The position numbers were made by a program, and so were the translations under genes. From the NCBI RefSeq assembly GCF_001761545.1, contig NZ_CP017326.1:1-64000 (forward strand): a stretch of DNA of 64,000 nt, written 5' to 3'. The notes under the pieces are model-generated. The model did not search any database. It saw only the letters and a list, made by a program, of their open reading frames with translations, and was not told the origin of the DNA. Each line of letters starts with the position of its first letter. Position 1 is the first letter of the stretch. This stretch comes from Weissella soli (lineage in GTDB: Bacteria > Bacillota > Bacilli > Lactobacillales > Lactobacillaceae). Positions 6,036-38,953 of this stretch are shown here, piece by piece.

Positions 6036-6755
6036 ATGAATCCGGAAGCTTTTGCGGCGGCATTACGTGAGCACCATATTGAATTAACGGCTGAGCAACT
6101 CGCCCAATACCAAACGTATTACGAACGCTTGGTTGAAGTTAATGAACATATGAATTTAACAGCGATTACCGAACGTGATGAGGTCTATTTGAAGCACTTC
6201 TTTGATTCATTGACATTAGCGTGGGCGTATCCTGCCTTACAAACAGAACCACTTAGCATGGTGGATGTTGGTGCCGGGGCTGGATTTCCATCAATTCCTT
6301 TAAAAATTGCGTTTCCACAATTAAAAATTACGATTATTGATGCCCTTAATAAACGGATCAATTTTTTGAACAACTTGGTCCAGGAATTAGGATTAACTGA
6401 TGTCCAGGCAATACATGCCCGTGCGGAAGAATTTGGAAACAAAACAGCACCAACGCGTGAAACTTATGATGTCGCTACGGCCCGTGCATTAGCGCGCTTA
6501 AATATTTTAGGTGAATTAACGTTACCACTAGTCCAGGTAGGTGGTGTCTTGCTTGCAATGAAGGGTAGTCAAGCTGACGAAGAGCTTGCAGAAGCAGACA
6601 AAGCAATCACAACGCTTGGTGGTGAAATTGGTGAACAAGTCGACGTGGCACTACCAAATGGTGATCCACGCTCAGTCATTTTGATTAAAAAAGTTAAAAC
6701 AACGCCGAAAAAGTACCCACGCAAACCAGGTGACCCTGTGCGTAAGCCGCTTTAA
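6036..6755 (+). CDS. rsmG: 16S rRNA (guanine-527-N7)-methyltransferase RsmG (GidB)
   Basis: Methylates G527 of 16S rRNA; loss gives low-level streptomycin resistance in several bacteria. The 239 residues hold the SAM-binding VDVGAGAGFPSIPLKI, an IDALNKRINFL motif and a C-terminal basic KKYPRKPG tail typical of the family. The frame stays open upstream to 5886, but that start would read through the parS palindrome and a non-conserved stretch. ATG 6036 has an AAAGGGG SD and gives the usual N terminus. A TATAAT at 5966-5971 may be its -10. It heads the parA-parB cluster, the conserved origin-proximal order. Confidence 0.96.
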   Translation: MNPEAFAAALREHHIELTAEQLAQYQTYYERLVEVNEHMNLTAITERDEVYLKHFFDSLTLAWAYPALQTEPLSMVDVGAGAGFPSIPLKIAFPQLKITIIDALNKRINFLNNLVQELGLTDVQAIHARAEEFGNKTAPTRETYDVATARALARLNILGELTLPLVQVGGVLLAMKGSQADEELAEADKAITTLGGEIGEQVDVALPNGDPRSVILIKKVKTTPKKYPRKPGDPVRKPL

Positions 6756-6800: not shown

Positions 6801-7571
6801 ATGGGACATGTTATCGCTTTAGCGAACCAAAAGGGTGGCGTTGGTAAGACAACGACCACGGTTAATCTTGGGGCAGCACTGGCAACAGCTGGTCAACGGG
6901 TGTTGATCATTGACACGGATGCTCAAGGAAATGCCACATCTGGTTCGGGCGTTCATAAATCAACCATTGAAAAAGACGTTTATGACGTTTTGGTTCATGG
7001 TTTGCCATTGGTTGAGGCGATTATCAAGACCAGTCACGAAAATATGGATATCGTACCAGCTACCATTCGGCTAGCTGGGGCAGAATTAGAATTGGCACCA
7101 GTTATGGCTCGTGAAACACGGCTAAAGGATGCACTAACAAGTGTCCGTGACAGTTACGATTACATCTTGATTGATAATCCACCAGCATTAGGTTTAATTA
7201 CCATCAATACATTTTCAGCGGCGGATTCGATTCTGATTCCAGTGCAAGCTGAATATTATGCCTTAGAAGGATTAGGACAATTGCTGCAAAACATTAAGTT
7301 GGTTAAACAACACTTCAATGCCGATTTGGAAATTGAAGGGGTCTTACTCACAATGGTTGACGCACGCACTAATCTCTCCAATGAAGTTGTGACAAATGTC
7401 CGTGATTATTTTGGAAAACAAGTCTATCAGACGATTATTCCTCGTAACGTGCGTCTGTCAGAAGCACCTTCACATGGTTTGGCCATTCAAGACTATGATC
7501 CGCAATCAAGAGGCGCGGAGGTTTACGATCAATTGGCACAGGAGGTCTTAGAAGCTCATGGTGACAAGTAA
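6801..7571 (+). CDS. parA: Chromosome-partitioning ATPase ParA (Soj)
   Basis: Deviant Walker ATPase that binds DNA non-specifically as an ATP dimer and interacts with ParB-parS complexes in origin segregation and replication control. The deviant P-loop KGGVGKTTT is at residues 11-19, Walker A' IDTDAQGNAT near 38 and Walker B-like DYILIDNPP near 120. At 256 residues it is the normal chromosomal Soj size. SD AAAGGAACT precedes ATG 6801. Its 3' end overlaps parB by 14 bp. Confidence 0.96.
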   Translation: MGHVIALANQKGGVGKTTTTVNLGAALATAGQRVLIIDTDAQGNATSGSGVHKSTIEKDVYDVLVHGLPLVEAIIKTSHENMDIVPATIRLAGAELELAPVMARETRLKDALTSVRDSYDYILIDNPPALGLITINTFSAADSILIPVQAEYYALEGLGQLLQNIKLVKQHFNADLEIEGVLLTMVDARTNLSNEVVTNVRDYFGKQVYQTIIPRNVRLSEAPSHGLAIQDYDPQSRGAEVYDQLAQEVLEAHGDK

Positions 7572-16298: not shown

Positions 16299-16370
16299 CT
16301 GGGGTAGTAGGATTCGAACCTACGCTACAAGGTACCAAAAACCTCTGCCTTACCACTTGGCTATACCCCA
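16299..16370 (-). tRNA. tRNA-Gln (UUG)
   Basis: 72 nt. The acceptor stem TGGGGTA/TACCCCA with discriminator G, D-arm AGCC...GGC, anticodon loop TTTTGGT giving UUG, and T-arm GTAGG-TTCGAAT-CCTAC are all intact. CCA is not encoded. Identical in sequence to the copies at 16592 and 19307. Confidence 0.97.
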
Positions 16371-16380
16371 ATAATGAAGA

Positions 16381-16463
16381 TGGGAGCTATAGGATTCGAA
16401 CCTATGAACCCGAAGGAATGGATTTACAGTCCACCGCGTTTAACCAGACTTCGCTAAACTCCC
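16381..16463 (-). tRNA. tRNA-Tyr (GUA)
   Basis: 83 nt with a long variable arm (class II). The anticodon loop reads CTGTAAA with GTA at its centre; acceptor GGGAGTT/AGCTCCC with one G-U; discriminator A. It precedes tRNA-Gln by 10 bp on the same transcript. Confidence 0.97.
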
Positions 16464-16591: not shown

Positions 16592-16663
16592 CTGGGGTAG
16601 TAGGATTCGAACCTACGCTACAAGGTACCAAAAACCTCTGCCTTACCACTTGGCTATACCCCA
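16592..16663 (-). tRNA. tRNA-Gln (UUG), second copy
   Basis: 72 nt, identical to 16299-16370, with intact cloverleaf and UUG anticodon. Confidence 0.97.
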
Positions 16664-16673
16664 ATAATGAAGA

Positions 16674-16756
16674 TGGGAGCTATAGGATTCGAACCTATGA
16701 ACCCGAAGGAATGGATTTACAGTCCACCGCGTTTAACCAGACTTCGCTAAACTCCC
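16674..16756 (-). tRNA. tRNA-Tyr (GUA), second copy
   Basis: 83 nt, identical to 16381-16463, class II tRNA with GUA anticodon. Confidence 0.97.
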
Positions 16757-19306: not shown

Positions 19307-19378
19307 TGGGGTATAGCCAAGTGGTAAGGCAGAGGTTTTTGGTACCTTGTAGCGTAGGTTCGAATCCTACTACCCCAG
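19307..19378 (+). tRNA. tRNA-Gln (UUG), third copy
   Basis: 72 nt, same sequence as the two minus-strand copies, with its own promoter and terminator. Confidence 0.97.
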
Positions 19379-37056: not shown

Positions 37057-37758
37057 ATGAATTATCGAATCGTGTTGAAAATTACCCCATTGCAACTAGA
37101 TGTCCAAGTTACTGATGAAAATGAAGTGATGACTTCGCAAATCTATCGCTGTGAGAGTAGTTTTCAAGATGCTCTGAAAAGTCTACCGATATCACAGGCA
37201 ATTTCAGTGATTAATGGGCAATTGCAAGCTGCGATTGCCAAGATTCCAGCGGGTGGTAAAATCAAAGACCTGCATGTGCACACAACCATCGATGAATGGT
37301 TTGTGCTTGATGAGTTATTCAATCCCATTCATACCTTGTTAGATGGTTCAGATCAACGGGCAAAAAAGTATGTTGAAGCTGGGCGAGCGAACGGCATCAT
37401 CGCGCAATTAGAGGCAAAAAGTGGGGCAATGATCACATATAATTCACCGATTGCCATGTTACTATGGCTCAAAAACGAGGTGGGGACCACGTATCAAAGC
37501 ATCAAACACATCATGAGTTTTCGTGATTATTTGATTTATACTTGGACGGGAGCGAACCAGACGGTGGCCAGTACCGCTGCCCGTTCGGGTATGTACAACA
37601 TGTCCACAAACAATTGGGATGGACAGGCGTTGGCATTTTTAGATCTGCAACCTGAGCAATTACCAGCTGTGGTCCATGACAAGACAGTCAAAGCTGATTT
37701 TAATTCTGAAATCGCCCATGCATTAGGCCTTAATATCGATACAAAAATCGTGTGGTAG
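37057..37758 (+). CDS. Degenerate, half-length FGGY kinase-like protein
   Basis: 233 residues resembling only the N-terminal domain of FGGY carbohydrate kinases (gluconokinase-like): NSPIAMLLWLKNE, then KHIMSFRDYLIYTWTG, then AARSGMYNMSTNNWD match the usual order. The essential start (DxGTTxxK phosphate loop) is replaced by KITPLQLDVQVTDENE, and the C-terminal ATP domain is missing: the frame stops 16 bp before the structured RNA begins. A full enzyme is about 500 residues, so kinase activity is unlikely. The frame is intact and has an SD (GAAAGGAC), so it may still be translated as a repurposed domain or be a decaying gene. Confidence 0.65.
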   Translation: MNYRIVLKITPLQLDVQVTDENEVMTSQIYRCESSFQDALKSLPISQAISVINGQLQAAIAKIPAGGKIKDLHVHTTIDEWFVLDELFNPIHTLLDGSDQRAKKYVEAGRANGIIAQLEAKSGAMITYNSPIAMLLWLKNEVGTTYQSIKHIMSFRDYLIYTWTGANQTVASTAARSGMYNMSTNNWDGQALAFLDLQPEQLPAVVHDKTVKADFNSEIAHALGLNIDTKIVW

Positions 37759-37761
37759 TGC

Positions 37762-37767
37762 TATAAT
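37762..37767 (+). promoter_or_regulatory. -10 element of the structured RNA
   Basis: TATAAT lies just after the FGGY-like stop codon, 7 bp before the first paired base of the RNA. The -35 (TACAAA/ATACAA, about 37739-37745) is poor. Confidence 0.55.
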
Positions 37768-37773
37768 ATGTAA

Positions 37774-38066
37774 GTCGTCAGGGATGCAGTTAGTCAGGAA
37801 GGTAAGATATCCAGGATTGCAGCTGAGCAATCAGTTGAGGGTGCGATGCCCTGCTGTCTGACGATGATTACTAGCGGAAGGTGAAGGAGCCGCTAGTAAT
37901 CGGAGGAAAAAAGCTCAGGAAGTGATGAGCCTGAGCTTATGGGACAGATTAGTTACTGTGGTGGTAACTAATAGGTTTATGGTGAAAAGATTGTGGCGGG
38001 AATGGTGGCCCAAAGCAGTCACGAAAACAGCCTGCACTCTATTTGAGAGACGAGGCTGTTTTTTAT
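37774..38066 (+). ncRNA. Unidentified structured RNA of about 290 nt with its own terminator
   Basis: No plausible ORF covers this stretch. Pairing seen by eye: P1 37775-37781 with 37858-37864 (7 bp), enclosing a GATTGC/GCAATC hairpin (37815-37832); P2 37866-37877 with 37890-37901 (12 bp, perfect); P3 37911-37919 with 37930-37938 (9 bp, perfect); P4 37948-37956 with 37964-37972 (9 bp, perfect); terminator 38024-38033 with 38053-38062 plus T's. Loops are purine-rich (AAGGTGAAGGAG, AAGTGATGAG). It lacks the tmRNA and RNase P conserved blocks and is neither an SRP-like nor a 6S-like single rod. A standalone RNA is most likely; an exoA leader (ATG at 38135) is possible. Confidence 0.75.
38024..38066 (+). 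terminator. Terminator of the structured RNA
   Basis: A 10-bp stem AAAACAGCCT/AGGCTGTTTT with an inner CTCT/AGAG pairing, followed by TTTTATT. Confidence 0.88.
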
Positions 38067-38134
38067 TATAATAAAGCATAGAATATCATTTGGTATGTCC
38101 AAGAGACGTTAGTATTAAAACAGAGGGAAATCGT

Positions 38135-38953
38135 ATGAAGTTAATTTCGTGGAACATTGATAGCATTAATGCAGCTGTTGAGCATAGTTCTGCTCGTGGT
38201 GAAATGACTTGGGAAACTTTGCAAAATATCGCCACAATGGCACCGGATGTCGTGGCTATTCAGGAGACTAAGTTACGCCCAACTGGTCTAACCAAGAAAC
38301 AAGCTACGGCCATCGAGGAACTATTTCCGGAGTATCATAAATTTTTGAGCTTTTCGACTGCCCGTAAAGGGTATGCAGGTACGATGATGCTGACGAAGGA
38401 GGCACCAGTGAGTGTCACGTACCCCGAAATTGGGGCCCCAGGTGAGATGGATCAAGAAGGACGTATCATCACTTTGGAATTTGCCGAATACTTTGTATCA
38501 ACAGTGTACACGCCAAACTCAGGTAGTGATTTGGCACGTTTGACAGATCGCCAAGCTTGGGATGATGCTTATCGTATGTATATCCAATCTTTGGATGAGC
38601 AAAAGCCAGTTATTTTTAGTGGTGATTTTAATGTTGCACACCAAGAAATTGATTTGAAGAATCCAAAGACTAATCACCATTCAGCTGGCTTTACCGATGA
38701 AGAACGGGTGAAATTTGGTGAGTTGTTAGATGCTGGGTTTACAGATATTTTCCGTTACCAAAACCCAGAGGCTGAAAATATTTATACTTGGTGGGCACAG
38801 ATTAGTAAGACCTCAAAGATTAACAACTCGGGTTGGCGCATTGATTATTATCTCGTTTCAGAGCGAATTAAAGATACCGTCAAGTCGTTTGAAGTCATTG
38901 ATACTGGTGCGCGCAAAGACCATGCGCCCATTATGATTGAGTTAGAACATTAG
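38135..38953 (+). CDS. exoA: Exodeoxyribonuclease III (AP endonuclease, ExoA type)
   Basis: 272 residues from ATG 38135 (AGAGGGA upstream; a longer frame begins inside the RNA-gene gap). It cuts abasic sites in base excision repair. Motifs of the EEP superfamily: LISWNIDSINAA, AIQETKLR (metal Glu), YTPNSG, SGDFNVAH, the WWAQ block near 228, WRIDYYLVS and a terminal KDHAPI with the catalytic Asp-His. Confidence 0.95.
   Translation: MKLISWNIDSINAAVEHSSARGEMTWETLQNIATMAPDVVAIQETKLRPTGLTKKQATAIEELFPEYHKFLSFSTARKGYAGTMMLTKEAPVSVTYPEIGAPGEMDQEGRIITLEFAEYFVSTVYTPNSGSDLARLTDRQAWDDAYRMYIQSLDEQKPVIFSGDFNVAHQEIDLKNPKTNHHSAGFTDEERVKFGELLDAGFTDIFRYQNPEAENIYTWWAQISKTSKINNSGWRIDYYLVSERIKDTVKSFEVIDTGARKDHAPIMIELEH

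Follow-up and report, generated by a model that had tools for sequence, protein, structure and literature searches.

The DNA analysed here, a window of 64,000 nucleotides from Weissella soli (contig NZ_CP017326.1, positions 1 to 64,000, forward strand), encodes at positions 37773–38065 of the plus strand a structured RNA with a predicted transcript of about 290 nt. We regard it as all but certain that this RNA represents a real family. The family, apparently new, occurs in 27 of 28 Weissella genomes and comes with a candidate partner, a degenerate half enzyme that has been kept by selection. The pair is a clean example of how the gene of an enzyme can lose catalysis and still be retained beside an RNA, in the setting of a genus with no recognised 6S RNA in any of the 28 genomes, and the covariation model together with the collected loci makes the function of the RNA directly testable. 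The RNA family is secure; its function is not. A structured sRNA as such is a known kind of molecule.

Architecture and stability of the RNA

The RNA opens with a 5′ domain (37774–37865) of five helices, P1 to P5, which scores 81.1 bits with R1, the covariance model of this domain. Helix P1 (37774–37781/37858–37865) closes the domain, and within it lie P2 (37786–37790/37853–37857), P3 (37791–37799/37810–37819), P4 (37820–37837) and P5 (37838–37841/37849–37852). The loop of P5 is a T-loop-like heptanucleotide, UGCGAUG (37842–37848), which conforms to UKCRAUK in 27 of 27 copies. A row of hairpins follows on the same strand: HP1 (37866–37901), a perfect helix of 12 bp with loop AAGGUGAAGGAG; HP2 (37911–37938), a perfect helix of 9 bp with loop AAGUGAUGAG; HP3 (37948–37972), of 9–10 bp, with GUGGUGG in its loop region; and HP4 (37989–38020), the loop of which carries GAAUGGUGG. 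HP4 is weak in the window genome and long in many other copies of the RNA. The transcript is predicted to end at a bipartite intrinsic terminator hairpin (38024–38065) that has CUGCACUC and six T residues. Measured from 12 nt before a GATGC block to the T-run, the predicted length of the RNA is 258–298 nt across the 27 copies.

The minimum free energy (MFE) of the RNA is −110.1 kcal/mol, compared with −80.25 ± 4.23 kcal/mol for 200 dinucleotide shuffles (z = −7.06), and none of the 200 shuffles was as stable. The preliminary description of this locus had spoken of a highly structured RNA of about 290 nt with more helices than chance would give, and the very stable multi-hairpin fold agrees with it on both counts. 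Its strong terminator is likewise found in the MFE fold, as a hairpin with six T residues at about 38024–38064. The closing helix that it gave as 7 bp is present but reaches 9 bp in the MFE fold, and of its three perfect hairpins of 12, 9 and 9 bp the first two are indeed perfect, the third being the 9–10-bp HP3. Its view that the stretch holds no convincing open reading frame stands: in the window, no listed frame over it exceeds 49 aa on the plus strand or 54 aa on the minus strand. Longer frames cross the RNA in some relatives, for example G010 (127 aa on the plus and 97 aa on the minus strand) and G021 (73 and 76 aa, both minus); these are chance-like, and the hairpins covary as RNA.

A promoter-like signal lies immediately upstream. 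The extended −10 box TGCTATAAT (37759–37767, plus strand) comprises TATAAT at 37762–37767 preceded by TGC. Among the 27 RNA loci, the hexamer is TATAAT in 25 and TACAAT in two, TGn precedes it in 22, and the distance from the start of the box to the GATGC block is 21–22 nt in all 27. Because the box is kept at this fixed spacing throughout, a promoter for the RNA is supported, and the TATAAT noticed in the preliminary description gains a conserved position. A general scan of the plus strand for promoters and terminators lists neither this box, which has no good −35 element, nor the bipartite terminator, the inner hairpin of which exceeds the loop limit of the scan.

Covariation of the helices

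We assessed the fold in two alignments. Alignment A4 holds 22 of the 27 RNAs, with the near-identical copies L004, L006, L007, L084 and L087 left out; alignment A5 holds 13 of the 27, the full-length copies that share the same layout. The G004 copy (L015/L088) was left out of all alignments. In A4, every cell (594 of 594) in the five helices of the 5′ domain holds a standard pair, and both partners have changed in 16 of the 27 base pairs; when the partner column was slid by 1–3 columns as a control, pairing fell to 29.5–50.5%. Over the full length, 97.0% of 839 cells in A5 are paired, with double changes in 40 of 65 pairs, against 37–50% pairing in the slid control. No shuffle in 500, for either alignment, matched the observed number of paired cells, the double changes or the covariation score. 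A further measure, the count of further pair types, did not exceed the shuffles, of which 486 of 500 were as high for A4 and 167 of 500 for A5. Individual elements of the 3′ half also covary in the 13 full-length copies: the helix equivalent to HP3 shows double changes in six of ten pairs, and the outer helix of the terminator in eight of ten. HP2 is variable and was missed by the A5 alignment; in single copies it forms a hairpin of 8–16 bp. The covarying helices in relatives that the preliminary description had named as support for a functional RNA are therefore present, by the measures of paired cells, double changes and covariation score alike.

Distribution of the family

With the covariance models of Rfam 15, no family reached its gathering threshold at the RNA locus, and at E-values up to 10 the only match was a sub-threshold one to mir-30, of 15 bits and on the opposite strand. 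The locus thus falls outside the common RNA classes, as had been supposed, and the RNA belongs to no Rfam family and hence to no rare class covered by Rfam; membership of a rare class, such as raiA, had been floated. The companion suggestion of a new sRNA has fared better, in that a covarying family without an Rfam match recurs through the genus.

BLAST with the RNA stretch of the window against 100 genomes gave matches in 20, namely the window genome, 18 of the 27 other Weissella genomes and G037, from another genus. The G037 match spans only some 30 nt, in the terminator, is unsupported by the R1 model and was rejected. Scanning the 28 Weissella genomes for a pattern brought three more copies, and in the six remaining genomes the RNA was found by reading behind the half-kinase gene described below. 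In total, 27 of the 28 Weissella genomes carry a full-length RNA. The exception is G004, one of the 18 relatives matched by BLAST, where the RNA and the half gene lie in inverted pieces; as this assembly is 66% complete, the scrambled locus is probably an assembly fault.

The pattern scan of named genome contigs returned 22 stretches, 18 from Weissella, two from Lactobacillaceae MAGs and two others. The first 20 score 83–101 bits with R1. The other two, L113 and L128, we took as chance, since L128 scores 15.5 bits and L113 has no R1 listing. In searches with R1 itself, 26 of 397 genomes of the family gave matches at 81–101 bits, all of them Weissella and with one match per genome; the order draw gave five of 395 genomes, again Weissella only, and the phylum draw a single one of 398, that of the window. 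All three draws exceed 40 genomes, the size above which stricter filters apply and weak matches are lost. When the filters were relaxed, 33 other family genera, presumably with Leuconostoc among them, yielded six matches (E up to 1, in five genomes, at 17–21.7 bits), all of which are tRNAs and were set aside. Phage and plasmid records held no match to the RNA by BLAST, nor did a distant BLAST search. As far as these tools see, the family is restricted to the genus; they could overlook a far-diverged relative elsewhere.

A pattern scan of viral contigs picked out 12 stretches (L131–L142) that by eye are phage tRNA-like arms and not homologues of the RNA; the R1 search lists four of these, at 11.7–16.4 bits, and none of the rest. 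The arms are of the AAGGTTCGATTCCTTGCTGTCTTATTAC type, as at positions 6840–7190 of L134, which by eye also carries a tRNA-Leu-like piece. ARAGORN placed no tRNA at the viral element in the seven contigs scanned and one tRNA-Asn nearby in L135. Positions 6500–7500 of L134 gave no Rfam match at E up to 1, and the fold there is not unusually stable (z = −0.57).

In the open-access literature searched, including PMC8632094, PMC8414754 and PMC12286853, we found no description of the RNA. Neither the RNA nor its pairing with the half kinase belongs to a family that we found, and either may still be published elsewhere.

A half-length gluconokinase relative precedes the RNA

The gene upstream of the RNA (37057–37758, plus strand) encodes a protein of 233 aa that is related to the N-terminal domain of FGGY gluconokinases and is without the FGGY_C half, the ATP half of such enzymes, and without most of the active-site motifs. 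The window copy matches FGGY_N of Pfam at E = 4.9e-26, and all 17 half proteins aligned from the 28 Weissella genomes (alignment A1) match FGGY_N and no other domain. The best NCBIfam match, gntK_FGGY (TIGR01314), is partial and below the cut-off, with E = 6.4e-21 for the window copy and 1.2e-36 for L155. The nearest solved structure is the gluconate kinase 3gbt (E = 1.9e-32), and the structural model of the half protein (pLDDT 89) superposes on it with a TM-score of 0.83. Like the FGGY gluconokinases, then, the half protein has the N-terminal domain, but unlike them it has no C-terminal half, no GTTSTK motif and little of TWAD.R. Compared with 15 full-length kinases, GTTSTK is lost and TWAD.R largely lost in the halves; the aspartate of DLGTT is left in 15 of 27 and that of TWAD in 14 of 27. 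We take GTTSTK to be the phosphate motif and TWAD.R the substrate motif. With FGGY_C absent and both motifs mostly lost, the half protein does not have the make-up of an active gluconokinase, and from its sequence it is apparently catalytically dead. A core of residues is kept in all 27 halves, for example Q117, L118, K121, P131, A174, G178, W187, Q190, L192, L202 and P203.

Half-length frames (215–275 aa) were matched in 28 of 28 Weissella genomes, the match in G004 being split, and each of these genomes has longer FGGY frames (473–557 aa) in addition to the half gene. In 33 other genera, all matches at E ≤ 1e-6 fall in frames of 468–570 aa (30 genomes with a match). The 16 other aligned half proteins are 24–40% identical to the window copy. 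In 11 of 11 species pairs, dN/dS is 0.045–0.22, the pairs being partly non-independent and two having saturated dS (>2). Judged by these sequence comparisons, the half gene is under purifying selection and does not resemble a pseudogene. The preliminary description had called this FGGY gene broken; it is instead a conserved half gene, matched in every one of the 28 genomes. All 27 half proteins are acidic (pI 4.3–5.65), which weakens the case for direct RNA binding by the half kinase.

Gene order around the RNA

In 27 of 27 RNA loci, the first open reading frame upstream is the half gene. From its stop codon to the GATGC block the distance is 25–47 nt in the 24 loci measured and 24 nt in the window. 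What lies beyond the half gene varies. In 19 of the 27 loci it is gnd, for 6-phosphogluconate dehydrogenase, which is directly adjacent in 16 loci and in G011 and is separated by one open reading frame in G001 and G026. In seven of the 27 it is a gene for a DUF4811 protein (checked with Pfam for the window copy); the two groups together cover all the loci except G019. The window belongs to this second group, in which the RNA/half-gene unit sits behind the DUF4811 gene and exoA comes next in five of seven. Downstream of the RNA, the first open reading frame belongs to nine different clusters; the contig of G007 ends before any.

Outside the genus, three of the four gntK loci fetched have a common order, regulator / gnd – gntK (512–517 aa) – gntP, from which G045 differs. 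The protein families were checked for L149 of these loci, and gntK also for L150; the regulator is presumably RpiR-like. Comparison of the gene orders places the RNA/half-gene unit where those genera have gntK and gntP. We infer a history in which gntK shrank to one half and the RNA either arose or came to settle behind it. The half enzyme is strictly linked to the RNA and has probably been repurposed.

Possible functions of the RNA

A motif resembling GUGRWR is repeated in the loops of P3 and of HP1 to HP4. Counted as GTGRWR, it occurs 4.7 times per RNA (range 2–7) compared with 1.46 times in shuffles, and its unpaired probability is 0.84 compared with 0.34 overall; both figures are for a motif picked by eye from the sequences on which it was measured. 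In the window it lies at 37881, 37922, 37958, 37961 and 37982. HP1 is without the motif in G001, G007, G008, G009, G016 and G025, and HP2 in many copies.

The anatomy, with a stable head and then several similar loops in succession, suggests an RNA that is free and acts in trans. The account that we put forward, tentatively and with rather less than even confidence, is that of a stable scaffold or decoy sRNA with repeated loops, with the half kinase in the same control unit. The RNA would be transcribed on its own and act in trans; its 5′ domain would keep it compact, and the GUGRWR-type loops of P3 and HP1 to HP4 would present one binding motif several times. These loops may titrate some partner, with an RNA-binding protein the likeliest candidate and another RNA a less likely one. 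As for the half gluconokinase, it would be kept in the same control unit, where it might, for example, sense or modulate carbon flux through protein contacts and not through catalysis. Linkage of the RNA and the half gene in 27 of 27 loci, across two main upstream contexts and nine downstream clusters, supports this account. It is also supported by the covariation, by the promoter box at its constant spacing, by the single match in each genome with a match, by the conservation, purifying selection and well-predicted fold of the half gene product, and by the frequent, mostly unpaired loop motif. Against a decoy, however, stand the incomplete retention of that motif among the hairpins and the failure to find CsrA, the target best known for RNAs of this multi-loop type, in any of the 28 genomes; the acidity of all 27 half proteins counts against direct RNA binding in such a mechanism.

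The anatomy invites comparison with CsrB and RsmZ, protein-titrating sRNAs that have a row of hairpins, loops that repeat a purine motif, and a terminal terminator. The Weissella RNA has all three features, but its motif is GUGRWR and not GGA, it has a T-loop-like 5′ domain and it is linked to a half kinase. Counted over the whole RNA, GGA occurs 9.56 times per copy compared with 7.89 in shuffles. CsrA/RsmA (PF02599) was detected in 0 of 28 Weissella genomes and in three of 14 controls (E. coli, B. subtilis and T. maritima), and titration of CsrA was therefore rejected.

Alternatively, the half gluconokinase itself might bind the RNA, the complex forming a dedicated ribonucleoprotein that serves as a functional particle or sensor. 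This is a possibility of some weight, though a doubtful one. The linkage persists through the change of neighbourhood, the half protein is under purifying selection, and it has lost most catalytic motifs while keeping the core of the fold; yet its pI is acidic in 27 of 27 cases, Pfam finds FGGY_N alone in the 17 of 17 half proteins scanned, and the protein diverges fast, down to 24–40% identity to the window copy. On a broader and equally doubtful view, the non-catalytic half gluconokinase and the RNA might form a genus-defining unit, as a ribonucleoprotein or as a sensor with its decoy, that couples sugar-acid or pentose-phosphate flux to gene expression.

We consider it rather unlikely that the purine-rich loops work by base pairing, with mRNAs, with other sRNAs or, as a ribosome decoy, with the anti-Shine-Dalgarno tail of 16S rRNA. 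Loops such as GGAGGUGAAGGA are strongly Shine-Dalgarno-like, and 203 predicted loops pair with the 16S tail at a mean of −6.22 kcal/mol compared with −4.89 kcal/mol for shuffled tails, of which two in 200 did as well. The reversed tail, however, is nearly as good (−5.97 kcal/mol), and several copies have lost the full anti-Shine-Dalgarno match, their HP1 loop reading GUGAAGG or GUUGAAGG.

Two other roles appear weaker still. That the RNA is the 3′ untranslated region of the half-gluconokinase mRNA, stabilising or regulating that mRNA in cis, would fit its start right after the stop codon of the half gene, but the TATAAT/TACAAT box stands between the two with its spacing fixed to the RNA and not to the gene, and we judge this role improbable. 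A functional stand-in for 6S RNA is more improbable by some way. In its favour, RF00013 was found at E ≤ 0.001 in 0 of 28 Weissella genomes, though in five of 14 control genomes, and PMC8414754 gives only weak, non-canonical 6S candidates for Weissella. The RNA, like 6S RNA, is stable and has its own promoter box; unlike 6S RNA, it is a multi-hairpin structure and not a rod with a central bubble, its locus has no RF00013 match, and the transcribed locus to which PMC8414754 points is another one, downstream of rarA.

Least credible of all, to the point of being negligible, is a leader or riboswitch of exoA (exodeoxyribonuclease III; 38135–38953, plus strand), a long exoA leader having been one suggestion of the preliminary description: exoA does start about 70 nt 3′ of the RNA in the window, but it lies outside the RNA/half-gene unit, is the first downstream open reading frame in only five of 27 loci, is cut off by the terminator and has a separate promoter-like site ahead of it, and the RNA and the half gene stay together while their neighbours change, so the RNA is not its leader. 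That site (TTGAGA-18-TATAAT, 38043–38072, plus strand) is an 11/12 match to the consensus only; it starts inside the RNA terminator, and a mean of 1.6 such sites is expected in shuffles of the region.

Resemblance to other structured RNAs

As described in PMC12286853, the ornate RNAs GOLLD, ROOL and OLE are likewise structured bacterial RNAs with poorly understood functions, and ROOL env-120 is given there as 659 nt. The Weissella RNA differs from them in being shorter, in having no Rfam match and in having no BLAST match in phage records.

A resemblance to tRNA and to the tRNA-like domain of tmRNA is confined to sequence: P5 with its 7-nt T-loop-like loop corresponds to a T arm. Since P5 is T-loop-like, tRNAs are the nearest outside matches of R1, aligned at the T arm; true members of the family score 81–101 bits, whereas outside tRNAs score 17–21.7 bits. 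In the RNA, moreover, P1 is followed directly by HP1, so that, unlike in tRNA and tmRNA, no free 3′ end is predicted, and the locus has no Rfam match to tRNA or tmRNA. Elsewhere in the window, two tRNA genes (72 and 83 nt) form a pair that occurs twice in tandem on the minus strand, at 16299–16463 and 16592–16756, and a third copy, on the plus strand at 19307–19378, scores the same as the 72-nt tRNA.
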